NCBI RefSeq assembly: GCF_000402035.1
Contig: NC_021295.1
Location: forward strand, 245,693-309,692
DNA: 64,000 nt
Reading direction: 5' to 3'
Origin: Caballeronia insecticola
GTDB taxonomy: Bacteria; Pseudomonadota; Gammaproteobacteria; Burkholderiales; Burkholderiaceae
Shown here: piece after piece, positions 15,419 to 29,525 of the stretch
Layout of the letters: each line of letters starts with the position of its first letter
Numbering within the stretch: position 1 is the stretch's first letter
Program-made: the position numbers and the translations under genes
Notes under the pieces: model-generated
What the model was told of the DNA's origin: nothing
Database searches by the model: none
The model's input: only the letters and a program-made list of their open reading frames with translations

Positions 15419-17104
15419 CTAATGATCGACAGCTTGCGCTGCCATGATCCCCGTTTCCGAATTGAAGACCTGCAGTGCGAACGCATCGCGCTCGCGCCGG
15501 GCTCGCGCACTTTGATCCAATAGCGAGAAGATCCAGATGCCGGAGAACGCCAGCGGAACCGAAATCAGTGCCGCATTATCCAGCGCGACCAGGGCTTTCG
15601 AATGATGAAGCACATCGACCCACACCGCCTTCGAGAGAATCGTCAATAGAACCGAGGACACCAGTCCCAAAGCGCCACCGATGACGGCGCCACGGGTCGT
15701 CATGCCGCGCCAGAAAATCGACAAGGCCAGCACCGGGAAATTCGCGCTCGCCGCAACTGAAGCCACGAGACCGGTAAGAAAGGCGACGTTACTATTCTCG
15801 AAGATCACACCGAGTCCGATCGCGACTACGCTCAGTACCAGCGCGGCGATTCGCGAGATACGAATTTCCCGCTTTTCATCGCTGTTACCTCGCGCCAGCC
15901 AGCAGCCGTAAAGATCGTGAGAGATCGTAGCCGCGCCGGAGAGTGTCAGTCCGGCCACAACGGCGAGAATCGTCGCAAATGTCACCGCAGCAATGAACCC
16001 GTAGAACAGATTTCCGCCCAGCGCCTGCGCGAGTTTCACGGCGGCCATATTCGAACCGCCCATCAGATCCTGCGTCAGATTGAAACTGCCGTTCGCCGCG
16101 GTTCTGAAGAATTCCGGGTGGTCCGCCAGCAAAGCGATTGCAGAGAACCCGATGATAAAGGTCAGCAAGTAGAAGTAGCCGATGAAACCCGTTGCAACGA
16201 ACACGGACTTGCGTGCCTCCTTCGCGTTCGGAACAGTGAAGAATCGCATGAGGATATGAGGATATCCCGCGGTACCGAACATCAACGCGATGCCCAGCGA
16301 CAGCGCGTTCAGCGGATCCTTCAGCATTTTGCCCGGCCCCATGATGCTGAGCGCCGCCGGGTGCACGTCGACGGCTCGCCGAAACATCGCCTCCGGACTA
16401 AAACCGAACTGAGCGAGTGCGATGATCGACATGAAAGTTGCACCGCACAGCAACAACACGGCCTTGATGATCTGCACCCAGCTCGTAGCCGTCATGCCCC
16501 CGAAGAACACATAGACGACCATCAAGGCGCCGACGATACTCACGGCCATCCAGTACGGCAAGCCGAAAAGCAGCTGAATCAGCTTCCCCGCGCCCACCAT
16601 CTGCCCCACCATGTAAAAGATCACGATGATGAGCGACGTGCTTGCGGTCAAAAGTCGAATCGGGGCCTGCTCGAAACGATAAGCCACCACGTCGATAAAG
16701 GTGAATTTCCCGAGATTGCGCAAGGGCTCCGCAAGCAGGAACATCACAAACGGCCAGCCTACTAGAAAGCCGATGGAGTAAATGAGGCCATCGAAACCGA
16801 ACACGAACACCATTCCTGAAATACCCAGAAATGATGCCGCGGACATGAAATCGCCGGAGAGCGCGAGCCCGTTCTGAAAGCCGGAAAGACCGTTGCCTGC
16901 GCTATAGAAATCCCTGGCGGTCCTCGTTTTGCGGGCCGCCCAACGCGTTATGCCAAGTGTGACGAGTACAAACAGGACGAAGGTCCCGATTGCAACCGGA
17001 TTCAATACGGAACGCTCAGAGGTCAATCCCGAGATTCCAGCGGCATGCACCGGTCCGGTCAGGAGGATCACCGGTGCAAGCGATAAGAGACGAAAGTGCT
17101 TCAT
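15419..17104 (-). CDS. actP: ActP-type cation/acetate symporter (sodium:solute symporter family)
   Basis: A 561-residue membrane protein of the SSS family with about 13-14 helices and a cleavable-looking N-terminus (residues 1-21). The sequences DFYSAGNGLSGFQNGLALSGDFMSAASFLGI and AGLTLSGAATISHDLYG match ActP, which imports acetate and other short monocarboxylates with a cation. Its start lies 3 bp after the DUF485 gene stop, the usual yjcH-actP pair. It is downstream of, and on the same strand as, the dimethylformamidase operon, separated by about 330 bp. It may supply or recover a carboxylate product such as formate, acetate or pyruvate, but that is inference. Confidence 0.92.
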   Translation of the reverse strand: MKHFRLLSLAPVILLTGPVHAAGISGLTSERSVLNPVAIGTFVLFVLVTLGITRWAARKTRTARDFYSAGNGLSGFQNGLALSGDFMSAASFLGISGMVFVFGFDGLIYSIGFLVGWPFVMFLLAEPLRNLGKFTFIDVVAYRFEQAPIRLLTASTSLIIVIFYMVGQMVGAGKLIQLLFGLPYWMAVSIVGALMVVYVFFGGMTATSWVQIIKAVLLLCGATFMSIIALAQFGFSPEAMFRRAVDVHPAALSIMGPGKMLKDPLNALSLGIALMFGTAGYPHILMRFFTVPNAKEARKSVFVATGFIGYFYLLTFIIGFSAIALLADHPEFFRTAANGSFNLTQDLMGGSNMAAVKLAQALGGNLFYGFIAAVTFATILAVVAGLTLSGAATISHDLYGCWLARGNSDEKREIRISRIAALVLSVVAIGLGVIFENSNVAFLTGLVASVAASANFPVLALSIFWRGMTTRGAVIGGALGLVSSVLLTILSKAVWVDVLHHSKALVALDNAALISVPLAFSGIWIFSLLDQSARARRERDAFALQVFNSETGIMAAQAVDH

Positions 17105-17106
17105 CG

Positions 17107-17424
17107 TCAGTCTCCCCGTCCGGCAGAAACAAGCAGCGAGCTCATTGCGGGATCGAACGTACGATTCGCACGCAGCACATAAAATCCCGTCATGGCCACC
17201 GAGCCGATGACGATGCCGATGCCCACGACGATTCCAGTGCTGATGACTCCGCCCCTGAAAAACGGGCGCGCAAGCATATGCGGCGCGAGAGCGACCAGCA
17301 GAATGAAGCCGTAGTAGATCAGCGTCATCAGCGCCGTCATGGTCAGTCTGAACCGGCGACGCGATGCCACGAGCTTCCTGTACGTCGCACTGGCTTCCAT
17401 CTGATCGATGTCCGATTGTTGCAT
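17107..17424 (-). CDS. DUF485 (YjcH-like) membrane protein
   Basis: A 105-residue protein with two hydrophobic helices (about residues 34-54 and 66-88) and the conserved FRLTMTALMTLIYYGFILLVALAP stretch of DUF485 (PF04341). In Escherichia coli yjcH precedes actP in the acs operon, and the same order and near overlap are seen here. It is probably an accessory subunit or partner of the carrier. The start codon ATG has GGAGAG a few bases upstream. Confidence 0.9.
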   Translation of the reverse strand: MQQSDIDQMEASATYRKLVASRRRFRLTMTALMTLIYYGFILLVALAPHMLARPFFRGGVISTGIVVGIGIVIGSVAMTGFYVLRANRTFDPAMSSLLVSAGRGD

Positions 17425-17725
17425 TGCTCTCCTCCGAATGTGTCCAATAATGTCAATACGAATGTGGCCACCGCTGAATCGCTAAAGTTTCAACATCTCA
17501 AAAATCAACCTGCGCGCTTCGGAGAAGCGTAGTAGCGAGTCGTGCAGCACCGCTCACGCGCCTACCATCAGGCTTCGTTCAATTGCAAGTCAAAGCCTGG
17601 AATTGAACTCCGTCTTACCTTGCATTCCTAATTGTTTTCGAATGAGCAATCTTCTCTCGACCATCTCTCGTCAGTCGCTGATGCTTCCTGCAAACGCAAC
17701 AGCGACGGCGGTTACAGCGTCTTAC

Positions 17726-17745
17726 GCTCCCTCGACGGAGGGAGC
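17726..17745 (-). terminator. 8-bp hairpin after the last gene of the dimethylformamidase operon
   Basis: GCTCCCTC and GAGGGAGC form an exact inverted repeat with a four-base loop, beginning 8 bp after the stop codon at 17753. There is no U-run, so it may be a Rho-assisted end or a processing hairpin. Together with the 328-bp gap it suggests that the DUF485-actP pair has its own promoter. No gene was seen in 17425-17752. Confidence 0.5.
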
Positions 17746-17752
17746 ACGGATC

Positions 17753-18187
17753 TCAGACGAACAATGAGTCGGGAGCCTCGCCTTCCGGCCAGGCATTGAA
17801 GGTCGCCTCCCAGTAAACGCATTTCTCTTTCTGGATTTCGATGAACTCGATGCCGCGCCCCTTCATCGACTTGCCGGTCTTGCTGTCGGTCCACGAGGCC
17901 GTCCACGAGCAAATGATGGTGGACCCTACGACGCCACGGAGCGTCTTCTTGAGTTGGTAGCCCTTCTGGCGCGCCAGTCGGGCGAGAATGAAGGCCTTGA
18001 GGTCCGTCTTGCCTTGGATGCGCGGCAGATCCGCGAATTCCACGACGATGTCGTCGGCGAAGCCCTGCATGTAGTTGTCGATATCGCCGGTGTTCCATTG
18101 TTTCTGGTATCCGGCGAGCAGCGCTTCCGCCTGCGACCAGGTCATCTGTTCGGTCGCGTCGGTCTGCGGGGTGACAATAGCGTTCAT
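17753..18187 (-). CDS. NTF2/SnoaL-fold protein
   Basis: A 144-residue protein with the cone-shaped NTF2-like pattern: an N-terminal helix (EQMTWSQAEALLAGYQKQWNTGD), then DIVVEFADLPRIQGKTDLKAF, and strands ending in CVYWEATFNAW. The GKTDLKAFI stretch is the usual turn before the central sheet. An excellent ribosome site (AAGGAG, eight bases before ATG) is present. It follows the unknown 178-residue gene by 42 bp and is the last member of the operon. The family covers small isomerases, dehydratases and ligand-binding proteins, so a catalytic role on the amide or one of its products is possible but unproven. Confidence 0.82.
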   Translation of the reverse strand: MNAIVTPQTDATEQMTWSQAEALLAGYQKQWNTGDIDNYMQGFADDIVVEFADLPRIQGKTDLKAFILARLARQKGYQLKKTLRGVVGSTIICSWTASWTDSKTGKSMKGRGIEFIEIQKEKCVYWEATFNAWPEGEAPDSLFV

Positions 18188-18229
18188 AGATTCAACTCCT
18201 TATTTGCGTGGGTTTGTTCGCTTGGCAAC

Positions 18230-18766
18230 TCAAATGTCGCCATTGAAATGTTCTTGCAGGTAGCGATTGACCGCGGTCTCGGCGCTCACGCCATGGCCGA
18301 TTCTTTGCACGTTGCGAACCCAATGCTCGCGCTCGAACGCGATAAGCGGGATCTCCCACGTGCACGCGACCACGGCATTGGGATCTTTCGTGAATTCCGG
18401 GTTGGTGATGGATTCCGAGCGAAACAGAATCTGCTTCCACAACACGTCGTGGGACCACCAGTCAAGCAACAGCCAGTTGCCAAGGCGCCCTTGATGGAGC
18501 ACGGCGAAACCGGTCCTGTGCGAGTTCTTGCTGAGCAAAGGGTTGTTGGCGACTTGATCCCAGACAAGCTTCTTGGCCGCGTTCAATAGTCCGGCATCGA
18601 CAATCGGCTCGCCCTCGACGTACCTCGCATTGATGCCATAAAACTTGAAGGTCCAGCCATGAGCGGATTCGAGTTCGATGAAGCGGATCGGGCGGACGTC
18701 GTACGCATCCCTTTTCAGCCCGTAGTTGTCCGCTTGCTCTGCGATGGCTTCAACACCAAGACTCAT
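18230..18766 (-). CDS. Conserved hypothetical protein of the dimethylformamidase operon
   Basis: A 178-residue soluble protein that I do not recognise. It has no signal peptide or membrane helix and is rich in tryptophan (about nine, for example LGNWLLLDWWSHDVLW). It contains VRPIRFIELESAHGWTFKFYGINARY near the N-terminus and a helical end (AETAVNRYLQEHFNGDI). The start has AGGAGATAG before ATG. It lies between the DUF1330 and NTF2 genes on the same strand, so co-expression with the amide-degrading enzymes is likely. Being an unknown embedded in a catabolic operon, it is a good candidate for a missing step or a binding protein. Confidence 0.75.
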   Translation of the reverse strand: MSLGVEAIAEQADNYGLKRDAYDVRPIRFIELESAHGWTFKFYGINARYVEGEPIVDAGLLNAAKKLVWDQVANNPLLSKNSHRTGFAVLHQGRLGNWLLLDWWSHDVLWKQILFRSESITNPEFTKDPNAVVACTWEIPLIAFEREHWVRNVQRIGHGVSAETAVNRYLQEHFNGDI

Positions 18767-18924
18767 TTTCTATCTCCTGAATACGAAAACCGGCTTGCCT
18801 GAACTGATGGCGCAGCGCCGAATACCGGGCGAGCCGATCTCGCTTGATCAAAAAAGTATTTCCTTTCTATCTCTTGCTACATGCCTTTCAGGCCTTGCCC
18901 TGTCCCTGATCGGCTTCCCACCCG

Positions 18925-19218
18925 TCACTCCGCCACGCCTTCGACGATCGCGAGCTTGCGTCTGGCGTATTTCTCGATCACATCGATGGCCGGCCGATAT
19001 TCGGGCGAGTAATACCACTGGCGCGCACGCTCCACCGATTCGAACTCGACGATGATCAGCCGGTCGAAACTCCAGTCACCTTCGATGACCTCGGTCGCGC
19101 CACCGCGCACCAGGTACTTCCCGCCAAATGCATTGATCACCGGATAGGCGACTTCCCGATATTTCTCATAGGCTTCCTGATTGGTAATTTCGACATCGAC
19201 AAGCACGTAGGCCGCCAT
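18925..19218 (-). CDS. DUF1330 domain-containing protein
   Basis: Read from ATG at 19218 (97 residues) because TTGGAG stands nine bases upstream. A four-codon-longer start at 19230 is less likely. The sequence AAYVLVDVEITNQEAYEKY, GGKYLVRGGATEVIEGDW, RLIIVEFESVERARQWYYSPEY is diagnostic of DUF1330 (PF07045), a dimeric ferredoxin-like alpha/beta barrel fold. Relatives are often found in catabolic clusters, and a few are thought to be small isomerases or monooxygenase-like. It follows the large dimethylformamidase subunit by 81 bp on the same strand. Confidence 0.9.
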   Translation of the reverse strand: MAAYVLVDVEITNQEAYEKYREVAYPVINAFGGKYLVRGGATEVIEGDWSFDRLIIVEFESVERARQWYYSPEYRPAIDVIEKYARRKLAIVEGVAE

Positions 19219-19299
19219 GAGTTGCTCCAATGAACAGGTTCGTTTCTCGTTGCTTCAAGTTTTCCCTAGACGACTTCGGGTCGCTCGGCAACGCTTTCC

Positions 19300-21606
19300 T
19301 CAGCCAAGCGTTTCATCGATGAACCTGCTGGGCAGTTCATCCTTGAGGAACGCCCGCGTGACGTTCGACATCAAACGGGAGATGCTGTTGTCGAAGCCGT
19401 TGATCGGCAAGGCCTGACCGAATGAGATTGCGCCCGTTGCAAATACGGCGCCTCCCGCCTTCGTATCGAAGTACGTCATGTCGGCGCGGATCCGATAGTC
19501 GTATGTCCCGGTGAGACCTGGCTGCATATAGAAGATCTCGTCCTGAAAGACCACATAGTTGTCACTGTGCTCGCCGGACGACGCCAGAATGCGCGTATGA
19601 GGCGGCGTGCCCTTGCTCAGGTCGTACCGGTCGATCTCCAGACCGGCCGAACCCGAGTGCGCCAGACCGAAGTCGCCGAACAACTCCGTATCGATACCGT
19701 CGAAAACCCACGCAAAAGACGGGTCTCTGGCATCCGGCATCTTCGTGTACCCCTGCCCCGTCTCCCATCCCTCGGAAATGCTTCCGATGCCGAAGATCTT
19801 TTGCGGTGGTCGGTTGAGTTGCTTCCAGAGGCCGCCCTTGCGGCCGTTGAGCGCCAGATGATGTTCGCCTGGGCGGGCATTCCATGAGCGATGCCCCGCA
19901 TCGAGTTTGCGAACTTCCATCACGGCGGGATTGGCGGCGTCCAGCGTGACGCTCCAATAGAAGCCATTTCCGCCGAGATACATCAGACGTCCGCCTTCGC
20001 CGACATAGTCCTCGATGGCGTCGAGAACCTGCTCCGACACGTACTCCGGATGGCTTCCGGTCAACACGCACTTGTAGCGCTTCAGTGCGGACAACCCTTC
20101 CTTATGCAAGTCTTCGTCGGTGATGAGTTCCCAGTCGAGTCCGCTTTGTTCGAGCCAGGCCACGATGGAAAGGTCGGCGGGAAACTGCCATGGCGTTCCG
20201 ATCGATGACATGCGATATTTCGGCCGCATCGTGAAGAGCGGTCGCAGATACGATGAGTAACTGACGCCTCCTCCGTCCGCATAGACATCGTATGTCGCGT
20301 ACCCGAACTCCGGGTTCTCGTACATCTCGATATCGACGTCATCGGCGATGGGCGGCTGGCCCATCATCGGCTGGATGCCGGGCGCATCCAGAGACAGATG
20401 CTCGTTCGCGTAGGCGAGATAGCTTTGTGTCGGCACCAGCAAGCACAGCTTGGCGGTCGGAGTTTTGGCGCGCACGAAGAAGACGACGTACTCCTCGTTC
20501 ATTTTCTTGCCATCGTGGATACGAAGGCGGAATGCGTAGATGCCGCTCTTGATCCCGTCGGGAAGCGTGATTCGGCGCGTCACTTTCCACTTGCAGTCGA
20601 TCACCGCGTCAGCGTGGAATTCGATGCCGCCGTATTCCTCAGGCCCGGTATGAAAGGAGTCGTGCCGGCCGCTCCAGTTCCATCCTGTCTGTCCACGTAC
20701 AGGATAGTTCTGGCCATGAGCGTGAATGCCCATTGGACCTGTATCGACAACCATCTGGCCAATGCCGGAAACGCTATAGCCAGCGGAGGTGTTCCAGTAG
20801 ATGAACTTTTCCGTCGCGTTGGGCGCTTGTCCCTTGGCGAGGCTGGCGAGCGCATCTTCTCCCGCGCCATACCAGAGAACCCCGGGGCGATCGATCTTCC
20901 CGTGGAAATTTTCAGCCGTCCAGCGCTCGTCGTCCGGCAGGGAAACGTCGGCGCAGGCGATCAGGAACCGCGCGTCCGGGGTGCTGATCGGCGCGTTCAG
21001 CCTGACTTCGAATCGTGCGGGTGCACGGTCGGCAAAGGCGTTTGCGCTCAGGAGGCCGTTGTAGCGCGACACCACGTTTCGGCGATGCAGCGTCACGCGT
21101 CCGGATGCGGGGTCGACTGCAACGGCGACGAAGTACCAGGTTTTCGCGACCAGCGCGTCGTGATCCTGAACTTCGCCACTGGACGCTGAAGAACTCCACC
21201 GGAACGCAAGCTTTCCGTTTCCCCCGATCTCGAGACGATATCCCTGCCTCGATGTCGTGTCCCACCGGCCCAATATTGTCTGTGTGTCGCCGGTTGCGGG
21301 CAGCGTCGGATACACGAAGGCAAACAGGGTGAATGCCTGAAGTTCGTCGAGCTTGTTCGCTGAATCCGCGACCGACAGATACGAGCCGATTTGCGTCCGC
21401 TGCTGATGAACGTCCCACTCGCCATTGGCATCGCAATCGACTTCTCGTTCGATAAAGCCCGGTCCTGACGGATGCTCGTCACCGTGAATCAATCGAACGA
21501 GTTGTGCCTGAGCGGTGGTCGCGCCCGTCGCGCTCACGAATACGTCGAAGGCGTCGCCAGGGCGAACCGAGATCTTGTTCGCATAGCCAAAAATTTTGGT
21601 AGACAT
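19300..21606 (-). CDS. dmfA2: N,N-dimethylformamidase large (beta) subunit
   Basis: A 768-residue protein, very near the roughly 762 of known DMFase large subunits. An N-terminal all-beta part includes a concanavalin-like lectin domain (about residues 90-240, YRLEIGGNGKLAFRWSS). A C-terminal alpha/beta part carries CLLVPTQSYLAYANEHL and LTGSHPEYVSEQVLDAIEDY. Paracoccus DMFase is reported to hold mononuclear iron with two Tyr and one Glu. Tyr399, one of the Tyr residues near 439, and Glu521 here are the likely equivalents (mapping inferred). The enzyme hydrolyses DMF to dimethylamine and formate. The small subunit gene is 26 bp upstream. No dimethylamine dehydrogenase is nearby, so the real substrate may be another N-alkyl amide. 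Confidence 0.9.
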   Translation of the reverse strand: MSTKIFGYANKISVRPGDAFDVFVSATGATTAQAQLVRLIHGDEHPSGPGFIEREVDCDANGEWDVHQQRTQIGSYLSVADSANKLDELQAFTLFAFVYPTLPATGDTQTILGRWDTTSRQGYRLEIGGNGKLAFRWSSSASSGEVQDHDALVAKTWYFVAVAVDPASGRVTLHRRNVVSRYNGLLSANAFADRAPARFEVRLNAPISTPDARFLIACADVSLPDDERWTAENFHGKIDRPGVLWYGAGEDALASLAKGQAPNATEKFIYWNTSAGYSVSGIGQMVVDTGPMGIHAHGQNYPVRGQTGWNWSGRHDSFHTGPEEYGGIEFHADAVIDCKWKVTRRITLPDGIKSGIYAFRLRIHDGKKMNEEYVVFFVRAKTPTAKLCLLVPTQSYLAYANEHLSLDAPGIQPMMGQPPIADDVDIEMYENPEFGYATYDVYADGGGVSYSSYLRPLFTMRPKYRMSSIGTPWQFPADLSIVAWLEQSGLDWELITDEDLHKEGLSALKRYKCVLTGSHPEYVSEQVLDAIEDYVGEGGRLMYLGGNGFYWSVTLDAANPAVMEVRKLDAGHRSWNARPGEHHLALNGRKGGLWKQLNRPPQKIFGIGSISEGWETGQGYTKMPDARDPSFAWVFDGIDTELFGDFGLAHSGSAGLEIDRYDLSKGTPPHTRILASSGEHSDNYVVFQDEIFYMQPGLTGTYDYRIRADMTYFDTKAGGAVFATGAISFGQALPINGFDNSISRLMSNVTRAFLKDELPSRFIDETLG

Positions 21607-21632
21607 ACAGCGATTCCGTCAAAGTAATCGAG

Positions 21633-21992
21633 TTAAAGCTTGAGATCGACGATTCGGCGCAGAAAGGTCGCGTGATAGGCCTCGTCTGGCGATGCGTAGA
21701 TTTTCTGATCGACCGTCTTCGGCGCCACGCCTCTTTGGCCAGACAAGGTGATGATCTGATAAGCCTTGAACGGCTCTATCACGCGTATTGCATACTTGCC
21801 GGCGTGTGGTCCGTTGCTGAGAATGAACGCCAGCCGCGCCAGCGCGTCGCTTTGTTTGCCGAGCGGCTGGCGTCGATGCTCTTCGATCAGCTCCTCGCTG
21901 ATCAGACCGCGAGCACGCTCGCGCTGATTGGCGAGAAAGCGTTCGTAATAGAGCAGGTCGCGATTCTCGGACTGTGATCTGGAGAGTCCCAT
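21633..21992 (-). CDS. dmfA1: N,N-dimethylformamidase small (alpha) subunit
   Basis: A 119-residue helical, basic protein that matches DMFase small subunits (about 130 residues) in length and content: SENRDLLYYERFLANQRERARG, then LARLAFILSNGPHAGKYAIRVIEPFKAYQII. In the known enzyme it wraps the large subunit and is needed for activity. A GAGGCTCGA ribosome site precedes the ATG. It is followed after 26 bp by the large-subunit gene, the order seen in DMF-degrading Paracoccus and Alcaligenes. A hairpin lies between its start and the upstream aldolase gene (22039-22080). Confidence 0.9.
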   Translation of the reverse strand: MGLSRSQSENRDLLYYERFLANQRERARGLISEELIEEHRRQPLGKQSDALARLAFILSNGPHAGKYAIRVIEPFKAYQIITLSGQRGVAPKTVDQKIYASPDEAYHATFLRRIVDLKL

Positions 21993-22038
21993 TCGAGCCT
22001 CGGTTGGTTAGTCGGAAGAACGCTAAAGATTTCGAAGT

Positions 22039-22080
22039 CCGGACGCCGGTCCGGGCATGTTCGTTTATGGCGGCGTCCGG
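22039..22080 (-). other. Intercistronic 10-bp inverted repeat before dmfA1
   Basis: CCGGACGCCG (22039-22048) and CGGCGTCCGG (22071-22080) are perfect complements with a 22-base loop, lying between the aldolase stop at 22088 and the small-subunit start at 21992. A GC-rich stem here could shield the 3' end of the upstream message or partly terminate transcription, and so set the ratio of aldolases to amidohydrolase. There is no U-run. Confidence 0.5.
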
Positions 22081-22087
22081 TTGACAT

Positions 22088-22978
22088 TTAGCGCCGGGCT
22101 TCTTGCAACAGCTTTGTCAGCATCTCCCTTTCCTCTTGCGCAAGCGGTGCGAGCGGCGCGCGAGGTATTCCGACGTCGAGGCCGTCGAGTTGCAGACCCG
22201 CCTTGATCGTGGTGGGCAATCCGCCCTTCAGAATAAATTCGAGCACCGGAAGTTGACGGTAAAACAGCCTTCGCGCGCGATCCAGTTCGCCGGTCGCTAC
22301 CGCGTTGTAAAGATCGATCGTGAGCGTCGGAATCAGGTTCGGGGCGGCCGTGCACCAGCCGGCCGCTCCGGCCACGAAAGCCTCGAGCGCGAGCGGGTTG
22401 CTACCGTTGTAAAACGGGATTTCTCCGTTGGAGAGTTGGTGAAGCTTGTGCATCCGCTGAATGTCGCCGGTGCTCTCCTTCACCATCGTCACCGCGTCGA
22501 TCTCTTTCACCAGGCGCGAAATCAGAAGCGGACTCATGTCGATGCCGCTGGTCGCCGGGTTGTTGTAGACCATGATGGGAATACCCACAGCCTTGCCGAT
22601 AGCCGCGTAGTGTTCGAAGATCTCCTGCTCGCTCAGCTTCCAGTAGGAAATCGGCAGAACCATGACGGCATCCGCGCCTTGGGCCTCCGCGAATTTCGCG
22701 CGACGGATGGCGTTGCGTGTGGTCAGATCGGAGATACCCACAACGACAGGGACGCGCCTCGCAACCTGCTTGATGGAAGCTTCCGCCGCGCGGTCCCATT
22801 CATCATCCGACAGATAGGCGCTTTCCCCCGTGCTGCCCAGCGGCGCGATCGCATGAACGCCGCTTCCGACCAGTCTCTCGATCGACTGTGACAGCATTCC
22901 GACATCGATACCGCCCTCCACCGGATGGAACGGCGTGATCGGATAAGCGATGATTCCCTTGAATTTCTGCTCTGACAT
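22088..22978 (-). CDS. DapA/NanA-family class I aldolase (dihydrodipicolinate synthase-like)
   Basis: From ATG at 22978, which has GAGG before it, the protein has 296 residues and starts SEQKFKGIIAYPITPFHPV. Family landmarks are GSTGE at 48-52, Tyr138 in VYNNPATSG and the Schiff-base lysine Lys167 in VKEST. A longer frame from 23086 overlaps the upstream gene and is rejected. The family condenses or cleaves pyruvate-containing keto acids or dehydrates sugar acids. True DapA is normally encoded elsewhere and the context here is catabolic, so a retro-aldol or dehydratase step giving pyruvate is likelier than lysine synthesis. Confidence 0.88.
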   Translation of the reverse strand: MSEQKFKGIIAYPITPFHPVEGGIDVGMLSQSIERLVGSGVHAIAPLGSTGESAYLSDDEWDRAAEASIKQVARRVPVVVGISDLTTRNAIRRAKFAEAQGADAVMVLPISYWKLSEQEIFEHYAAIGKAVGIPIMVYNNPATSGIDMSPLLISRLVKEIDAVTMVKESTGDIQRMHKLHQLSNGEIPFYNGSNPLALEAFVAGAAGWCTAAPNLIPTLTIDLYNAVATGELDRARRLFYRQLPVLEFILKGGLPTTIKAGLQLDGLDVGIPRAPLAPLAQEEREMLTKLLQEARR

Positions 22979-23021
22979 GACAGCCTCGATCAGTGATGAG
23001 TTCGTTGATTTCCTGGCGCCT

Positions 23022-23804
23022 TTACTGCAGACACCCTTCGTGATGCGGAAGCGCTCTGCGGGCGAAGTAACCGAACGTGACCGCATCGCGCTTGGGCGTC
23101 GAGATCCAGTCGTGCGCCTCTTTGCCCAGTTCGGGCGCGATCGGTTTCATGTCGCCCGCGGCCATGGCCGTCAGTTGCATTCGCGCGGCGCGTTCCATCA
23201 GCAACGCGAGAACACACGCTTCCTCGACCGTCTTGCCGGTCACGAGCATGCCGTGATGAGCCAACAGGATGGCTCGCTTCTGGCCGAGCGCCCCTGAAAT
23301 GATCTCTCCCTCCTCGTTGCCGACCGGGATTCCGGGCCACCTTTCGAGGAAGGCGCAATCGTCGTAAAGGGGGCACAAATCCATGTGCGACACGACGAGC
23401 GGCACTTCGAGCGTCGATAACGCCGAAACAAAGCGTGGATGCGTGTGAATGATGCAGTTGACGTCCGGTCGCGCGCGATAGATCCACGTATGAAATCGAT
23501 TCGCCGGATTCGGCATTCCCTTTCCGTCGAGGGTCTTCAGATCCTGATTCACTTGAAGCAGGTTCGACGCGGTAATTTCATCGAACCCGTGTCCGAACGG
23601 CTGCGTATAGAAGGTCTCAGCTTCCGGCGCGCGCGCGGTGATCTGGCCCGCGAGTCCCGAATCATGCCCGCCATCGAACAGGATCCGGCAGGTCAGAGCC
23701 AATTTCTGCTTTTCACTCCATTGCTGTTCGGTCAACTCGCCGTTCATTTGCGCGAGCGCGCGGGCTACGAGTTCGGCCTTCGCGACATGCAATGTTTCTG
23801 GCAT
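23022..23804 (-). CDS. Class II aldolase/adducin family protein
   Basis: A protein of 260 residues from ATG at 23804, with GAGG upstream. The longer frame to 23978 overlaps the amidase gene and is rejected. Family features are GGHDSGLAGQITARAP (substrate/phosphate loop region), the zinc-binding His pair in CIIHTHPRF, and LLAHHGMLVTGKTVEEAC with the third His. Members cleave or epimerise sugar phosphates or hydroxy-keto acids, for example fuculose-1-phosphate aldolase. The absence of a sugar kinase nearby argues for a non-phosphorylated substrate. It is 43 bp upstream of the DapA-like gene, giving two different aldolase folds in one operon. Confidence 0.88.
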   Translation of the reverse strand: MPETLHVAKAELVARALAQMNGELTEQQWSEKQKLALTCRILFDGGHDSGLAGQITARAPEAETFYTQPFGHGFDEITASNLLQVNQDLKTLDGKGMPNPANRFHTWIYRARPDVNCIIHTHPRFVSALSTLEVPLVVSHMDLCPLYDDCAFLERWPGIPVGNEEGEIISGALGQKRAILLAHHGMLVTGKTVEEACVLALLMERAARMQLTAMAAGDMKPIAPELGKEAHDWISTPKRDAVTFGYFARRALPHHEGCLQ

Positions 23805-23862
23805 TTCCAAACCTCGTCTGTCAATTCGTGATTGCGCAATTAAGTCGGTCTGTGCGGCGCGC

Positions 23863-25314
23863 TCAAAGCGCCGGATGCCTCGATGACCACGGTGCGATCG
23901 CCTCAAACTCTCTCGCGACGGCAAAGATCGATACGTCGTCGAAGGGGCGGCCAATGATCTGCACCCCGGTGGGCACACCTGAACTGCTAAAGCCCGACGG
24001 CAAGGAAAACACCGGGCACTGGCTCAGCAGATTGAAGGGATAAGTGAGGGCCCAGTTCAGGAACGCGTCGACGCGCTTGCCATTGATCGTGAAATCGGCA
24101 TCGTCGTTCCGGTGCTCAGCCTTGATCGCGGGAACGGCAAGCGTGGGCGTGACCAGCACATCGTTGCGCGCGAGAATGGGCGAGAGGCGTTTCCACATAT
24201 TCGTGCGGACCATTTCCGTCTGCTTGACGCGAATCGCGCTATGCGCCAGCCCTTTGTGAATGAGCTTGCGCACGAACGGGTCCATTTTGTATTGCCATTC
24301 CGGAATATGATGATGGGCGAGCGTTGCCAGCAAACCCTCCCAGTGCGTGACCCAAGCGTCGTACACGAGGTCGCTCCAGCCGATTTCGACCGTTTCGACG
24401 ATTGCACCGGCGTCGGCCATTTTTTCCACGGCGATACGCGTGTTGTCCGCGACTTCCTTGTCGATTTCGAAGTAACCGAGGTCAGGCGAAAACGCCACGC
24501 GAACGCCCTTCATCGAACGCTGAACGGACGCCTTCGGAATCTTGACCTCGTCGCGCAAACTCGTGATGTCCTCGGGGTGTTGTCCGGACATCACATTGAG
24601 CATCAGCGCGGCATCGTCGACCGAGCGCGTCATCGGCCCGATGTGGATGATGGATTCGAACATGGTGTCGAGCAGGAAGCCGGGGACGCGTCCGAACGAG
24701 GGCTTGTACCCGACAATGCCGTTCATCGAAGCAGGCATGCGAATCGAGCCGCCGCCATCGTCGCCTTCCGCGAGTGTCGTCATGCCGGCTGCCACGGTCA
24801 CGCCGGCGCCGCCTGACGATCCGCCACTGCTGAAGTCCTGATTCCACGGATTGCGCGTGACGCCATACAGAGGGCTATGGCAATGCCCGCAATGCGCGAA
24901 TTCGGGCGTGGTGGTCCGGATATGCATGATCGCGCCCGCGTCGAGCAGGCGTTGCACCGCAGGCAGAGTCCGATCGGCAGGCACGCCTTCGAAAATGCGT
25001 GAACCCCACGTAGTGGTCACATCCTTGATCGGATGCAGCTCCTTGACGGCAAGCGGAATGCCCTCGAGCGGCCGCACCACCTGTCCCGACCGATAGCGCT
25101 TCTCCGCATCTTTCGCCTGCCCGAGCGCCTGCTCGTAGAACCGGTTCGTGATTGCGTTGACGCTCGGGTTCACCGCCTCGCAGCGCTCGATGACGGACTG
25201 CATGAGATCCACGGGAGAAAGGCTGCCATCCTTGAAACGATGGACGGCTTCCTCCGCGGTGATGTAGTGAAGTTCGGAACTCGATACCATCGTGGGCTTC
25301 AGAAGTGTGGACAT
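23863..25314 (-). CDS. Amidase (amidase signature family)
   Basis: A 483-residue enzyme of the Ser-cisSer-Lys amidase family (PF01425). Catalytic Lys91 is in PLAVKELHP, the cis-Ser is Ser167 in the glycine/serine loop SSGGSSGG, and the nucleophile Ser190 is in EGDDGGGSIRMPAS. It hydrolyses a carboxamide to acid and ammonia or amine. The AGGGGG ribosome site before ATG is strong. It lies 67 bp after the LivF-like gene and 58 bp before the class II aldolase gene. With the dimethylformamidase subunits downstream, the operon holds two unrelated amide hydrolases, which suggests a substrate with two amide bonds or sequential deamidation. Confidence 0.92.
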   Translation of the reverse strand: MSTLLKPTMVSSSELHYITAEEAVHRFKDGSLSPVDLMQSVIERCEAVNPSVNAITNRFYEQALGQAKDAEKRYRSGQVVRPLEGIPLAVKELHPIKDVTTTWGSRIFEGVPADRTLPAVQRLLDAGAIMHIRTTTPEFAHCGHCHSPLYGVTRNPWNQDFSSGGSSGGAGVTVAAGMTTLAEGDDGGGSIRMPASMNGIVGYKPSFGRVPGFLLDTMFESIIHIGPMTRSVDDAALMLNVMSGQHPEDITSLRDEVKIPKASVQRSMKGVRVAFSPDLGYFEIDKEVADNTRIAVEKMADAGAIVETVEIGWSDLVYDAWVTHWEGLLATLAHHHIPEWQYKMDPFVRKLIHKGLAHSAIRVKQTEMVRTNMWKRLSPILARNDVLVTPTLAVPAIKAEHRNDDADFTINGKRVDAFLNWALTYPFNLLSQCPVFSLPSGFSSSGVPTGVQIIGRPFDDVSIFAVAREFEAIAPWSSRHPAL

Positions 25315-25381
25315 GTATCCCCCTGGACTTGTTCGCGATAGTTAGGTTGGCGACGACCCGAGTGTCGGCGCGGTTCGACTT

Positions 25382-26113
25382 TCATACCCATGGCGACCTT
25401 ACGTCGCCCGATAATTCACGCTCCAGCTCGCGGATGTTCGCCGCACTGCTCATTGCGAACGCTCGCTTGAACCTTCCCGAATCCATGAGATACCCGCGTG
25501 TCGAGAGTCTCGCCGCGAAGCTCGCATCCTTTTCGAGCGTCAGCACCGCCAGCTTCGCGTCGCTCGACACCTGCTCGATCACCTCGACCATCTCATCGAG
25601 CAGTGGAGGCTGCACGCCTGCGGAAGGCTCGTCCAGAACCAGAAGCTTCGGCTCGCTCATCAGTTCACGCGCCAAGGCCAGCAGCTGCTGTTGCCCTTCA
25701 TCGAGCGAACCGCCGAGTTCCCTCAGGACCGGTTTCAGGGTCTTGAAGTAGGTCAGCTGAGTCTCCAGAACACTGGACGTCTGCGCACTGTCGAGCCGCG
25801 CTGCGTATGCACCGACCAACATGTTTTGCATGACCGTCAGTTGCGAGAACACCTGGCGGGCCTGAGAGACATACGCGATTCCCCTGCGGGCTCGTGCATG
25901 TGCTGCCTCCGCGGTGACCTCCACGCCCATGAAGCGAATATTTCCCCGCCTGCAGGGAAGCGCTCCGGTTATGGCCCGGGCCAGCGTCGTTTTCCCCGCA
26001 CTCGCCCGACCCAGCACCGCCACTCGCTCCCCGAAATCGATCTGAAGATTGATCCCGCTCAGAACCACGGCGTCTCCATACCCTGAACTCGCATTGCTCG
26101 CGCTGAATAACAT
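25382..26113 (-). CDS. Orphan LivF-like ABC transporter ATP-binding protein with atypical signature motif
   Basis: A 243-residue ABC ATPase of the branched-chain amino acid/amide (LivF) type. Walker A is at residues 35-42 (GRASAGKT) and Walker B with the following Glu at 156-163 (KLLVLDEPSAGVQPP). The signature, normally LSGGEQQ, reads LDEGQQQ at 137-143, so the Ser and first Gly are replaced by Asp and Glu. No permease, LivG or binding-protein gene is nearby, so it must work with a system encoded elsewhere, or is a remnant. It is the first gene of the operon, divergent from the MocR regulator. A GGGGAAAACGAG leader precedes ATG. Confidence 0.82.
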   Translation of the reverse strand: MLFSASNASSGYGDAVVLSGINLQIDFGERVAVLGRASAGKTTLARAITGALPCRRGNIRFMGVEVTAEAAHARARRGIAYVSQARQVFSQLTVMQNMLVGAYAARLDSAQTSSVLETQLTYFKTLKPVLRELGGSLDEGQQQLLALARELMSEPKLLVLDEPSAGVQPPLLDEMVEVIEQVSSDAKLAVLTLEKDASFAARLSTRGYLMDSGRFKRAFAMSSAANIRELERELSGDVRSPWV

Positions 26114-26275
26114 CTCGTTTTCCCCTGGATGCTTACGCGTCCGGACCCAGACATCGGTTCCTCGAGCAAACCAGCCGATGCTCCGGCCCGCTGCCCCGTC
26201 TTAAAGCCATCAAGACGCGCTCACATGGTGTGGCCGCGACGCATTCCGGGCGATCCACATATGTTTTTCGTGCGG

Positions 26276-26290
26276 TGGTATAGATGGTAT
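26276..26290. promoter_or_regulatory. Direct repeat TGGTAT, likely MocR operator
   Basis: TGGTAT occurs at 26276-26281 and again at 26285-26290, nine bp apart, in the 250-bp spacer between the LivF-like gene and the MocR gene. Read on the other strand these are ATACCA repeats, the same hexamer used by GabR, a well-studied MocR regulator, though with different spacing. They lie 76 bp upstream of the regulator start and 160 bp from the operon start. Confidence 0.45.
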
Positions 26291-26365
26291 GCTCCATGAG
26301 GATCCAAATCATCATCCAGTTTTTTTGATTTGACGGGTCCAGATTTTTTCGCGGAGGAAATTGAA

Positions 26366-27883
26366 ATGAGCGGAAGAAAGCACGCACTGCGGGCATGGGA
26401 TTGGACGATGTCGCCTGATCGTGACACTTCGCGTCCGCTCAATGTCCAGATCGGCAAGGGCCTCATCGACAAGATCCGGGCCGGTTTGCTTCCGCCTGGA
26501 ACGCCGTTGCCGGGCTCGCGCGAACTCGCCGCCATCCTGGGCGTGAATCGGAAAACGATCGTTCTGGTCTACGACGAACTCGCGGCGCAGGGGTGGCTGT
26601 CCACCGAAGGCCGTCGAGGCACCTTCGTATCGCCCGATCTTCCGCAGGTGCGAGGGCGGCTCGGCGACAATTCAGCCGCTATCTTCGAGGAGGCCTTGCC
26701 CAACCCCGCCTATCACGTCTATGGATCAACCGAGCCATTACCGGAGATGGCATCGGAAGGTGTGATCGACTTCACGGATGGCGTGCCCGACACGCGTCTG
26801 GTGCCGTTCGGCGCGCTCTCCAGCGCGTTTCGCATGGCTTTGCTCGAGTTTGCGCGCGGCAGTCAATTGGGCTACTCCGATCCCCGCGGTCTTTTCGAGC
26901 TAAGAAATACCTTGACCTCGATGTTGCGCATCGAGCGCGGCCTGAGGGCGGATCCCGAGAGCATTTGCGTGGTGCGCGGCAGCCAGATGGGCATTTATCT
27001 CGCGGCCCGCATACTGGTTCGCCCCGGCGACACGGTCGTGCTGGAACAACTCACCTATCCCCCGGCTCGCGATGCGTTTCGCGCATGCGGGGCGTCGGTC
27101 GTCAGCATCGACCAGGATGAGTTCGGCATGAGCGCGGAATCGCTCAGAAACGTTTGCAAGGCGCAACGTGTTCGGGCGATCTATCTCACGCCGCATCATC
27201 AGTTTCCAACCACGGTAACGATGCCGATAGAACGACGCATGGAATTGCTCAAGCTGGCGGAAGAATTCGGCTTTGTCATCATCGAGGACGACTACGACCA
27301 CGAGTTTCACTTCACGCACAACCCCATGCAACCCATGGCCGCACTCGACCGCCGCGGCACCGTGATCTATATCGGCTCGCTATCGAAGATACTCGCGCCG
27401 GGATTGCGTGTCGGCTACGTGGTCGCGCCCCCATCCATCATTCATCGCATCGCAAACGAGATCGTCCTGATCGACCGGCAAGGGAATTCCGTTACCGAAC
27501 GCGCGATTGCCGATCTCATGCAAAGCGGAGAACTGAGGCGCCACGTACGCCACGCAGCCAAGGTGTATCACGCGCGCTGTCATACGTCCGCCGCGCTCGT
27601 GAGCGAGTATTTGGGCCCGTTTGCGAGCGTCGATATTCCTGGCGGTGGCCTTGCCCTATGGGTCCGTAAGACTGACGATGTCGATATGGCGCAGTTGTAC
27701 GACGACGCGATTGCTCAGAAGGTGCGCATTCTGCCGGGCTCGAATTTCTCCGCTGAAGCGCGCAATGTGAAAGCCCTGAGACTCGGCTATGCGAGCCTGA
27801 ACGAAAAGGAAATGCAGACGGGCATGGCAAGACTCAAGTCGGCATTGTCGCGGCAGGTTCACCTCTACGGGTCGGCTGCCTAG
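26366..27883 (+). CDS. MocR-family (GntR/aminotransferase) transcriptional regulator
   Basis: A 505-residue protein from the ATG at 26366, chosen because GCGGAGG stands eight bases upstream; a frame opening at 26330 would add twelve residues. An N-terminal GntR winged helix (about residues 15-85, PGTPLPGSRELAAILGVNRK) is linked to a fold-type I aminotransferase-like domain. The latter has the PLP-binding Asp in IIEDDYDHEFHF and the Schiff-base Lys in YIGSLSKILAPGLRVGYV. Such regulators sense amines or amino acids through PLP. It is divergent from the dimethylformamidase operon and is its likely controller, perhaps responding to an amine released from the substrate. Confidence 0.9.
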   Translation: MSGRKHALRAWDWTMSPDRDTSRPLNVQIGKGLIDKIRAGLLPPGTPLPGSRELAAILGVNRKTIVLVYDELAAQGWLSTEGRRGTFVSPDLPQVRGRLGDNSAAIFEEALPNPAYHVYGSTEPLPEMASEGVIDFTDGVPDTRLVPFGALSSAFRMALLEFARGSQLGYSDPRGLFELRNTLTSMLRIERGLRADPESICVVRGSQMGIYLAARILVRPGDTVVLEQLTYPPARDAFRACGASVVSIDQDEFGMSAESLRNVCKAQRVRAIYLTPHHQFPTTVTMPIERRMELLKLAEEFGFVIIEDDYDHEFHFTHNPMQPMAALDRRGTVIYIGSLSKILAPGLRVGYVVAPPSIIHRIANEIVLIDRQGNSVTERAIADLMQSGELRRHVRHAAKVYHARCHTSAALVSEYLGPFASVDIPGGGLALWVRKTDDVDMAQLYDDAIAQKVRILPGSNFSAEARNVKALRLGYASLNEKEMQTGMARLKSALSRQVHLYGSAA

Positions 27884-27895
27884 CTCGATGCTGGT

Positions 27896-28303
27896 CTAGC
27901 CAGGCAACTGCCCTATCTGTCGCAACAAGGTGGCCAGGTCCCAGTAGTCGACATTACGCACGATTTTCCCGTCTTTGAACTCCATGACGGACACGCCCGC
28001 CACATCGATTGTCTTGCCGGACGGATCGACGTCGAGAAGTTTCCCGTCGTGCGTCCCGGTTGCTCGCCATACGACAGCTGCACGATCTGCGGACTGGATG
28101 GCAGGCGAATTCGCGGCAAACTCGACGTCAGGAAAAGCCGAGAAGAAGCTGGACGCAAAATCCTTGAGCTCGTCTTTGCCGTTCATCTGAGCCTTGAGTG
28201 GCTCGTCACGATAGGCGACATCATCGGAAAACAGCGTCATCAACGTTGGCAGATCATGAGACCAGCCTGCCAGAAATCGATCGATCGTTGCACTCCAATC
28301 CAT
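27896..28303 (-). CDS. NTF2/SnoaL-fold protein (ester cyclase-like)
   Basis: A 135-residue protein from ATG at 28303, where GGAG lies seven bases upstream. The longer frame to 28474 is not supported. The pattern MDWSATIDRFLAGWSHDLPTL, LFSDDVAYRDEPLKAQMNG, then VEFAANSPAIQSADRAAVVWRATG and VAGVSVMEFKDGKIVRNVDYWD is typical of SnoaL-like NTF2 proteins, which include polyketide cyclases and limonene-epoxide-hydrolase relatives. It is convergent with the MocR gene, so probably separate from the operon, and its leader faces the YghU-like gene at 28683. Substrate unknown. Confidence 0.82.
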   Translation of the reverse strand: MDWSATIDRFLAGWSHDLPTLMTLFSDDVAYRDEPLKAQMNGKDELKDFASSFFSAFPDVEFAANSPAIQSADRAAVVWRATGTHDGKLLDVDPSGKTIDVAGVSVMEFKDGKIVRNVDYWDLATLLRQIGQLPG

Positions 28304-28682
28304 TAGCGTTCTCCATATCCTGAAAGGGACGCGCAATACGACGTCGCTTGAGCGTGCCGGGTCGCCCCGCTGATGTTCGATTCTGCTCAGTGACGAATCG
28401 AACTCTGCTAACACTTCGCGCTTTGGTGACTTGGAGAATGAACTCCTTGACAAGCTTTGGCAAGGCTTTGACAAAGCCAGCTCTCACTCAATTTAAAACC
28501 CGGATCTCGTTCGAAAAAACTGTGTAGATACACTCGTTTCTTAAGCGGTACACGCGCAGAGCACACAAGGAGGCGATTCGCTATCATCCAGATTTTACTT
28601 GTCCTGCGATGGCTTCTTGTCCTAAAGGGCTCGATCGCAGCAACAAGGTGGTCTTCGCCCCAATCGCAAGAAGGAGCCTGAA

Positions 28683-29525
28683 ATGAGCGAACCGGAATCC
28701 TACGTGCCGCCCAAAGTCTGGGTCTGGGATAAGCCCAATGGAGGCGCCTTCGCAAACATCAATCGTCCGACGGCTGGAGCGACCCATGACCGGCCGCTAC
28801 CGCGCGGCGAGCATGCGCTGCAGGTCTATTCCATGGGCACCGGCAATGGACGTAAAGTGACGATCATGCTGGAGGAGTTACTCGCGGCGGGCATCACTGC
28901 CGCGGAGTATGACGCCTGGATGATCGATATCAGTGCAGGAGATCAATTCGGTTCGGGCTTCGTCGACTTGAATCCCAATTCCAAGATTGCGGGAATGATC
29001 GACTATAGCGGTCCTCATCCCATCAAGCTGTTCGAAACGGGCGCCATTCTGTTGCATCTTGCTGAAAAGTTCGGCCAGTTCATGCCTGCCGATCCCGTCG
29101 GTCGCGGCGAATGCCTCTCATGGCTCTTCTGGCAAACCGGCAGCGCGCCGTTTCTACCCGGTGGTTTAGGGCACTTTTATAAATTCGCGCCGGTGAAACT
29201 CGAGTATCCGATCAACCGCTACGCCATGGAAGTCAAACGGCAACTCGATGTGCTGGACCGACGCCTGGCCGAGCGCGCTTTCATACTCGGCGAAGACTAT
29301 ACGATTGCTGATATCGCGATCTTTCCCTGGTACGGTGGAATCTTTCTCGACTGGGGCTATGGACTCGCCGAATTCCTGGGCAGCCACGAATACCCTCACG
29401 TCGAGCGCTGGGCCAGGCGCATAGAACAGCGTCCGGCGGTCCAGCGCGGAATACGCGTCAATCGCACGGGTGACACGCCACCCGGACTGATTCGCGAGCG
29501 CCACGCGGCATCCGATCTCGACTAG
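28683..29525 (+). CDS. yghU: Glutathione S-transferase family, YghU-type disulfide-bond oxidoreductase
   Basis: A 280-residue protein. The start MSEPESYVPPKVWVWDKPNGGAFANINRPT with a HDRPLPRGEHALQVYSMGTGNG thioredoxin-like domain is typical of YghU/YfcG-type GSTs, which use two glutathiones for disulfide-bond reduction instead of conjugation. The C-terminal helical domain includes the N-capping motif ILGEDYTIADIAIFPW. A ribosome site (AAGGAG) precedes the ATG. The length is near the E. coli protein (288). It overlaps the end of the convergent TetR gene by 4 bp. Probably a cytosolic oxidative-stress enzyme. Confidence 0.88.
   Translation: MSEPESYVPPKVWVWDKPNGGAFANINRPTAGATHDRPLPRGEHALQVYSMGTGNGRKVTIMLEELLAAGITAAEYDAWMIDISAGDQFGSGFVDLNPNSKIAGMIDYSGPHPIKLFETGAILLHLAEKFGQFMPADPVGRGECLSWLFWQTGSAPFLPGGLGHFYKFAPVKLEYPINRYAMEVKRQLDVLDRRLAERAFILGEDYTIADIAIFPWYGGIFLDWGYGLAEFLGSHEYPHVERWARRIEQRPAVQRGIRVNRTGDTPPGLIRERHAASDLD

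Follow-up and report, generated by a model that had tools for sequence, protein, structure and literature searches.

A pyruvic oxime dioxygenase-type protein and its DapA-fold partner within a row of putative amide hydrolase genes in Caballeronia insecticola

N,N-dimethylformamidase (DMFase) is an iron enzyme with two tyrosines and one glutamate as Fe ligands, and the residues Y440, E521, E657 and N547 have been named for it (PMC7686228). The pyruvic oxime dioxygenase (POD) of Alcaligenes faecalis (AfPOD, PDB entry 8IL8) is a non-heme Fe(II) enzyme. Q53, F103, H104 and E164 are reported to be completely conserved in PODs, POD activity is stated, on the authority of another paper, for recombinant members of a monophyletic POD group, and Glu164 and Tyr233 of AfPOD occupy the positions of the catalytic residues Glu73 and Tyr113 of FucA (PMC11841055). 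The DapA-fold protein PA0223 of P. aeruginosa (PDB entry 3na8) is without dihydrodipicolinate synthase (DHDPS) activity (PMC3281039). Relatives of all these proteins are encoded in one row of nine genes of Caballeronia insecticola, which we describe here. The row lies in a stretch of 64,000 nucleotides (contig NC_021295.1, positions 245,693–309,692; the whole stretch is called the window in the following), where it runs on the minus strand from 26113 to 17753 with intergenic gaps of 26–158 bp between the open frames. The first-pass annotation of the window had recognized this row and the divergent MocR gene at its head, and both are present. It had also taken the row as an operon built around DMFase. 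In this respect our results differ, as the core that recurs in other genomes is the POD-type gene together with the DapA-type gene.

The POD-type gene (23022–23804, minus strand) had been labelled a class II aldolase, and its product does score 467 bits with the NCBIfam model PRK07090 (cut-off 261). The three best PDB matches, 8ix6, 8il8 and 8iqa, are each labelled merely "Aldolase", and 8il8 is AfPOD, to which the window protein aligns with 249 bits and 48% identity over 238 aligned columns (E 4.4e-73 in the PDB sequence search). An E value below 1e-60 to AfPOD is the published limit for PODs, which was set for KEGG and is here applied to a PDB search. His119, His121, His183, Gln53, Phe103, His104, Glu164, Phe69, Ala51, Met19 and Glu229 are the same in both proteins, and the N-terminal stretch typical of PODs (K8/M19) is kept. 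The protein thus belongs to the POD family, that is to the Fe(II) oxime dioxygenases, and the aldolase label has to be replaced. By the residues called completely conserved it is a POD with a changed active-site rim, for which we presume dioxygenase activity.

The gene directly downstream (22088–22978, minus strand) encodes a protein with 3na8 as best PDB match (421 bits) which stays below the cut-off of the DapA equivalog model TIGR00674 (182 vs. 206 bits). Proteins of the DapA fold form a Schiff base with pyruvate, and the window protein is probably a Schiff-base enzyme too. The motifs KES and YNNP are kept in all eight aligned proteins; from DHDPS we take the lysine of KES to be the Schiff-base lysine and the tyrosine of YNNP to be the active-site tyrosine. 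At the site of YNVPxRTG, which we assume to be the DapA motif, the window protein reads YNNPATSG, so that Arg138, presumably the residue binding the aldehyde partner in DHDPS, is not found. A figure legend in PMC3281039 gives Arg138 as variable between PA1010 and its homologues. The DapA1 protein of P. pseudoalcaligenes (PMC6989483) has a different DapA role and was set aside.

How regularly these two genes occur together was surveyed in 398 genomes of the window's family, with matches taken at E<=1e-75 and up to six candidates scored per genome and search. POD matches were found at 89 places in 82 genomes (64 with at least 60% identity, 25 with at most 52%) and DapA matches in 43 genomes, one in each, from 4 of 25 genera. 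All 43 DapA genes, that of C. insecticola included, lie directly downstream of a POD gene on the same strand with a gap of 49–130 bp. The paired PODs are 43 of the 64 high-identity matches and none of the 25 others. A DapA search at the level of the phylum, again with 398 sampled genomes, gave three with the gene, our own included, and POD adjoins it in both others. A plasmid collection yielded 14 records with a DapA gene at 50% identity or more, 10 of them with POD beside DapA (in locus L089 after DapA and not before it). At three of the four plasmid DapA genes lacking POD (L092, L158 and L159, from Cyanobacteriota, Bacteroidota and Alphaproteobacteria) a small cupin gene is located directly upstream, where POD would be. 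Cupins are often Fe enzymes, and the cupin may replace POD there.

The surroundings of the pair vary. Three Rhodococcus plasmids carry POD–DapA with an annotated XRE regulator and no further shared gene, in another genome of C. insecticola's own genus (L138) the pair is placed together with an XRE-type regulator between ruvA and ruvB, and in Acinetobacter (L094) it has a MocR gene and lies beside a Mg-chelatase-type gene. The occurrence of the pair with only a regulator between ruvA and ruvB and on the Rhodococcus plasmids is expected of a self-contained module. In the 30 best family loci (∼3.8 kb each, our own among them) BLAST detected DapA in 28, the XRE-type regulator in 28 and a gene of the MOSC type in 23. 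Two of the regulator sequences, read by eye, suggest a cupin half in this XRE-type regulator as well. In 22 of the 30 loci (L109–L112 and L114–L131) the XRE-type regulator is adjoined by another gene, part of which resembles GntR/MocR proteins (31–37% identity to a Hymenobacter MocR). A MocR gene diverging from POD is found in L094, L134 and L135/L107, the latter two being one genome, with 41, 52 and 49% identity to the regulator of the window (range 41–53%). The 23 MOSC genes (among L102–L131) follow POD–DapA and all belong to one genus; MOSC follows the pair also in L144, which is from another genus, and in L093 and L145. L091 contains POD, a glutamine-amidotransferase-like gene and MOSC near POD, L156 contains POD, DapA and an amidotransferase-like gene, and in L158 MOSC is near DapA, with the MOSC and YiiM_3-alpha domains confirmed there. 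According to a review the MOSC proteins studied in vitro reduce N-oxygenated compounds, and the substrates reduced by mARC include oximes, hydroxylamines and hydroxamic acids (PMC10637980). Among the matches listed in a literature search no paper joined pyruvic oxime with dihydrodipicolinate synthase, or an oxime dioxygenase with DapA. The pair may nevertheless already be in print, in a study of the structure of POD genes (Tsujino et al. 2023).

The complete row was not recovered elsewhere. None of 24 inspected POD neighbourhoods has a DMFase match, and no match above 60 bits to either DMFase subunit or to the amidase was obtained in these loci. Outside this set a Pantoea plasmid (L090) has a weak amidase match (27%) beside POD, at the edge of an apparent peptide-product cluster (ThiF, ATP-grasp, TauD, and a major facilitator superfamily transporter). 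In the opposite direction, DMFase loci were taken as the best 80 of 586 from an alignment scan of genome contigs; a single-protein scan of the contigs for DMFase found no relative. In the 84 DMFase loci L003–L086 there is no POD or DapA as similar as would be needed for a counterpart of the window's pair; weak matches are a class II aldolase of 30% in L060 and a DapA of 28% in L073, and a DUF1330 match of 41% is found in L072. Isolation of the DMFase genes in relatives had been named beforehand as evidence against the operon, and we find it in part, as many of these genes stand beside importers of the ATP-binding cassette (ABC) type. A conserved nine-gene operon is rejected, as there is no second copy among the readable loci, to which the scans did not add that of P. 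bengalensis. In P. bengalensis the relatives of DMFase and of the 178-amino acid protein of the row apparently come from one contig of 120,566 bases, so that some of the row's genes seem to have stayed together. The 15 relatives of the row's UrtE-like ATPase listed at E<=1e-70 include none from a contig of this length. We conclude that POD, DapA and in some genomes MocR are the parts recurring elsewhere, and that the genes of the amidase, the ATPase, DMFase, the DUF1330 protein, the 178-amino acid protein and the SnoaL protein are local.

Both DMFase subunits had been named by the first-pass annotation, and here the comparison bears it out. The large subunit (19300–21606, minus strand; LamG and DMFA2_C domains) matches the Paracoccus DMFase 6lvb_A with 575 bits across residues 5–759, PF20254 with 301 bits and the N-acetyl-(R)-beta-phenylalanine acylase 8huy with 351 bits. 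The free-standing small subunit (21633–21992, minus strand) matches 6lvb_B above chance with 32.6 bits (E 7e-7). With the PF20254 domains of the large subunit and a small-subunit gene present, the pair belongs to the DMFase family. Counted along the alignment with 6lvb_A, all five functional residues are kept, Tyr399, Tyr440 and Glu521 as Fe ligands and Asn547 and Glu657 as catalytic residues, where 399 is the number we assume for the second ligand tyrosine; the equivalent columns are also invariant in an alignment of 16 sequences. The closest large subunits, among the best 120 of 1567, are from P. bengalensis (85%) and a metagenome (one protein, 82%), followed by proteins of 55–56% identity. 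Within the genus of C. insecticola a DMFase relative at E<=1e-30 is encoded in 4 of 58 genomes, including that of the window, and the other three are 33–36% identical.

In a tree of 91 large subunits made with a quick method, the window protein forms one group with the P. bengalensis and the metagenome protein, on a long stem (1.09). This group nests within a mostly permease-fused clade (support 99 for a set of 38 rows, SH-like approximate likelihood ratio 100 for a set of 60 rows). The large subunits of Paracoccus and Methylobacterium DM1 fall elsewhere, the 60-row clade being apart from L152 and L153. By this tree the window enzyme is outside the branch of the characterised DMFases, and its substrate therefore need not be dimethylformamide (DMF). 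In relatives from Agrobacterium and Aminobacter the large-subunit gene comes after a complete Liv-type ABC importer. Of the 84 loci, 63 have a small-subunit match that shares the strand with the large subunit; 51 of these 63 show it preceded by at least 250 residues of one open frame, 8 have a free-standing small subunit and 4 are intermediate. Eight of the 51 fused proteins were scanned (517–562 amino acids), and a Liv-type permease (PF02653) precedes the small-subunit part in all eight. The fused form is seen in L003, L004, L005 and in part of L007–L059 (e.g., L012:8318–9955, L027:8330–9988 and L003:10278–11936); by these sequences the fusion spans Pelagibacter to Actinomycetota, and the importer seems to carry a hydrolase subunit as a tail. 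As the window protein nests in a mostly fused clade, its free small subunit may derive from the split of such a permease fusion.

The reduction of N-oxygenated compounds by MOSC proteins, the oxidation of an oxime by POD and the binding of pyruvate by the DapA fold point, taken together, to N-OH chemistry. Thus, as the best reading, held tentatively and with somewhat less than even confidence, we suggest a composite operon in which amide or hydroxamate hydrolases have been recruited to a module leading from oxime or hydroxylamine to nitrite; its reactions, its substrate and its co-transcription are what we infer. The core would be the POD-family Fe(II) dioxygenase and the PA0223-type DapA protein with a MocR regulator as in some other genomes, and around it would be arranged the amidase upstream and, downstream, the DMFase-type hydrolase of two subunits followed by three small genes. 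By cutting an amide or hydroxamate, of the N-acyl or N-formyl hydroxylamine type, the hydrolases would release a short carboxylic acid together with a nitrogen fragment which carries an N-OH group or would be converted to an N-OH form. By its lysine Schiff base with pyruvate the DapA protein would form or present a keto-acid oxime, the POD protein would use O2 to oxidise this oxime, giving nitrite and the keto acid, and nitrite would be passed to a NirB-type reductase, for which the genome has a match of 1130 bits, above the cut-off.

A more specific form of this proposal, which we consider unlikely as it stands, is a two-enzyme cycle with pyruvate as carrier. DapA would join hydroxylamine or an N-OH amine with pyruvate to the oxime, POD would release nitrite and give pyruvate back, and a YiiM-type MOSC protein would act as a reductive safety valve where it is present; in C. 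insecticola the DMFase-type iron hydrolase and the amidase, acting on hydroxamic acids or N-formyl-N-hydroxy compounds, would feed the cycle, so that the whole would be a hydroxamate-to-nitrite pathway. The handling of hydroxylamine and oximes in heterotrophic nitrifiers is an open question, and pyruvic oxime is usually assumed to form spontaneously. A regular partner enzyme of POD, from Rhodococcus to Burkholderia, makes an enzymatic oxime route testable and offers a possible role for an uncharacterised DapA type with a solved structure (3na8). If the proposal is true, the name "aldolase" carried by the databases would be corrected, and the DMFase-type hydrolase of the row would extend the iron amidohydrolase family to N-OH compounds.

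Several observations weigh against the composite operon. According to PMC8629993 and PMC11160463 no enzyme is required to make pyruvic oxime, so that a forming enzyme may be dispensable, and we found no paper showing a function for the PA0223-type DapA. In the POD-type protein Tyr233, which is important for AfPOD activity (PMC11841055), is replaced by Trp, Glu45-Gln46-Glu47 by Gly-His-Asp (GHD) and Ile239 by Arg. A tree of 61 POD rows (55 different) has three groups; Trp and GHD are found in all 46 rows (duplicates included) of the window's group, to which the DapA neighbour is confined, and the other 15 rows have Tyr or Phe at the position of Tyr233. With this changed rim the oxime of the window's POD may be another one. 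PODs may differ in substrate, and for P. aeruginosa nitrite production was reported with acetaldoxime but not with pyruvic oxime (PMC5216522); the PODh of A. faecalis has a rate of 5.5% of that of POD (PMC8629993). The association itself has exceptions: 21 of the 64 POD places with at least 60% identity are without DapA, and 4 of the 14 plasmid DapA genes are without POD alongside. The 43 paired genomes are not independent, since 37 belong to one genus, and the scoring of up to six candidates per genome applies to both the POD and the DapA search. BLAST did not find a MOSC gene like those of L091 and L158 in the window. Finally, given the absence of DMFase from all 24 POD loci, it is a single gene order, with P. 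bengalensis as a possible second case, that connects the hydrolases with the module.

The same observations can be read as two functions lying side by side, with POD–DapA as a general hydroxylamine or oxime defence or salvage system and the amidase, DMFase, DUF1330 and SnoaL proteins as an unrelated amide pathway which shares a promoter or just the neighbourhood. The pair is found at many places without these neighbours, DMFase relatives elsewhere are without a comparable POD–DapA and in many cases beside ABC importers, and the close relatives listed for the UrtE-like ATPase include none from a contig with the length of the P. bengalensis DMFase contig. We nevertheless consider this explanation somewhat less likely than the composite operon, as the pair is not at an end but in the middle of the row, the POD-type gene following 58 bp after the amidase gene and the DapA-type gene ending 95 bp before that of the DMFase small subunit, and as the relatives of DMFase and of the 178-amino acid protein seem to be together in P. 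bengalensis.

The first-pass annotation had suggested that a larger N-substituted amide is hydrolysed by two amide hydrolases and that two true aldolases then cut the carbon skeleton to keto acids. The part concerning the amide can be retained: a DMFase-type enzyme and a second amide hydrolase are present in a tight row, and the substrate need not be DMF. Two aldolases, on the other hand, would have to be a POD-family protein and its regular partner (43 of 43, 2 of 2 and 10 of 14 cases), a relative of PA0223, which is without DHDPS activity. It is true that the aldolase folds are kept in both proteins, as is the lysine of the KES motif, with the Schiff-base role that we take from DHDPS. In addition, the same His triad serves in class II aldolases (PMC5216522). 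Yet the first protein is 48% identical to a proven oxime dioxygenase and has the residues reported as invariant in PODs, and at the FucA positions given in PMC11841055 it keeps Glu and has Trp for the catalytic Tyr, which speaks against aldolase chemistry of the FucA type and likewise for a changed POD. MOSC neighbours of POD–DapA in relatives do not fit this scheme either, so that the cleavage of the carbon skeleton by aldolases appears quite unlikely to us. Least probable by far is a module which detects and degrades a PLP-reactive aminooxy or hydroxylamine toxin of a competitor (PLP, pyridoxal phosphate). MocR would sense the toxin via its own PLP, and the amide hydrolases would open an acyl or hydroxamate part. 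Hydroxylamines form oximes with PLP, regulators of the MocR type have an aminotransferase-like body and the pair recurs on plasmids; on the other hand, the regulator beside POD is instead of the XRE type in 28 of the 30 best family loci, so that PLP sensing is not general.

Around the enzymes discussed so far the row contains further genes, all on the minus strand. The first gene of the row encodes an ABC ATPase similar to UrtE and LivF (25382–26113; PF00005, 93 bits) without membrane partners beside it. Its best NCBIfam model is UrtE with 197 bits, under the cut-off of 286, and its nearest relatives outside its own record are from Burkholderia sp. THE68 (64%) and P. caribensis MBA4 (61%, named UrtE). 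That it is a remnant of the importer found with DMFase relatives is not favoured, because the matches there are 22–35% identical and UrtE is closer. It is followed by the amidase-signature hydrolase (23863–25314; PF01425, 320 bits), with a best NCBIfam score of 396, under the cut-off of 506, and the aryl acylamidase 4yj6 as nearest PDB relative (209 bits). Downstream of DMFase are a DUF1330 protein (18925–19230; PF07045, 105 bits), the near-orphan 178-amino acid protein (18230–18766; without Pfam match up to E 1) and a SnoaL/NTF2-like protein (17753–18187; PF12680, 36.7 bits). For the 178-amino acid protein the protein search gave, apart from itself, three relatives, of 77% (from P. bengalensis), 69 and 47% identity, and there are weak matches (24–30%) on five plasmid records; its structure model has a mean predicted local distance difference test score of 45.7, too poor for a structure search. 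The genes of a DUF485 protein, a symporter partner (17107–17424; PF04341, 90 bits), and of an ActP-type monocarboxylate symporter (15419–17104; NF006903, 857 bits, cut-off 750), 2 bp apart from each other, are present downstream as the first-pass annotation had noticed, but are set off from the end of the row by a larger gap of 328 bp. A consensus scan of the row gave fewer promoter- and terminator-like sites than shuffled sequences (2 vs. a mean of 4.4 and 5 vs. 12.8, respectively), so that it cannot settle the limits of the transcript.

The divergent gene on the plus strand (26366–27883, with two possible ATG starts at 26366 and 26408) encodes the MocR-type regulator with a GntR head (PF00392) and a PLP aminotransferase body (PF00155). 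The protein exceeds the cut-off of the NCBIfam model for the pyridoxine regulator PdxR (349.5 vs. 320 bits); no pyridoxine gene was noticed beside it, and the model may be too broad. A second SnoaL-like gene (27896–28474), with a product weakly resembling the SnoaL protein of the row, and a glutathione-S-transferase-like gene (28683–29525) adjoin the regulator gene.

Compared with the known systems, the window has in common with DmfA1A2 of Paracoccus both subunits, the LamG and DMFA2_C domains, the Fe ligands and the catalytic residues. The DMFases of P. aminophilus and of Methylobacterium DM1, which reportedly degrades DMF, are ∼40% identical to the window protein. Their plasmid loci have a LuxR-type regulator, and in the stretches covered, where several genes are named just "hypothetical", none of the other neighbours of the window is annotated. 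The acylase 8huy is of the same large-subunit family and more distant than DMFase; by its PDB name it acts on a larger amide, and family membership thus does not fix the substrate. The YiiM-type MOSC proteins encoded after POD–DapA elsewhere mark a further difference, as BLAST with the L091 and L158 proteins gave no counterpart here. PA0223 of P. aeruginosa is the best PDB match of the DapA-type protein. The name of its neighbour in numbering, PA0224, occurs once in the POD paper PMC5216522, PA0223 and PA0224 are raised together in one P. aeruginosa mutant (PMC10247376), and the relevant parts of the papers cited contain no link of the two to DMFase or an amidase. The POD of A. faecalis, finally, shares with the window protein 48% identity, the His triad, the invariant active-site residues and the N-terminal stretch. 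In contrast to the pod and podh clusters of A. faecalis, which contain glutathione-S-transferase-type and transporter genes (PMC8629993), the POD of the window stands beside a DapA partner and has Trp in place of Tyr233 and the GHD loop.

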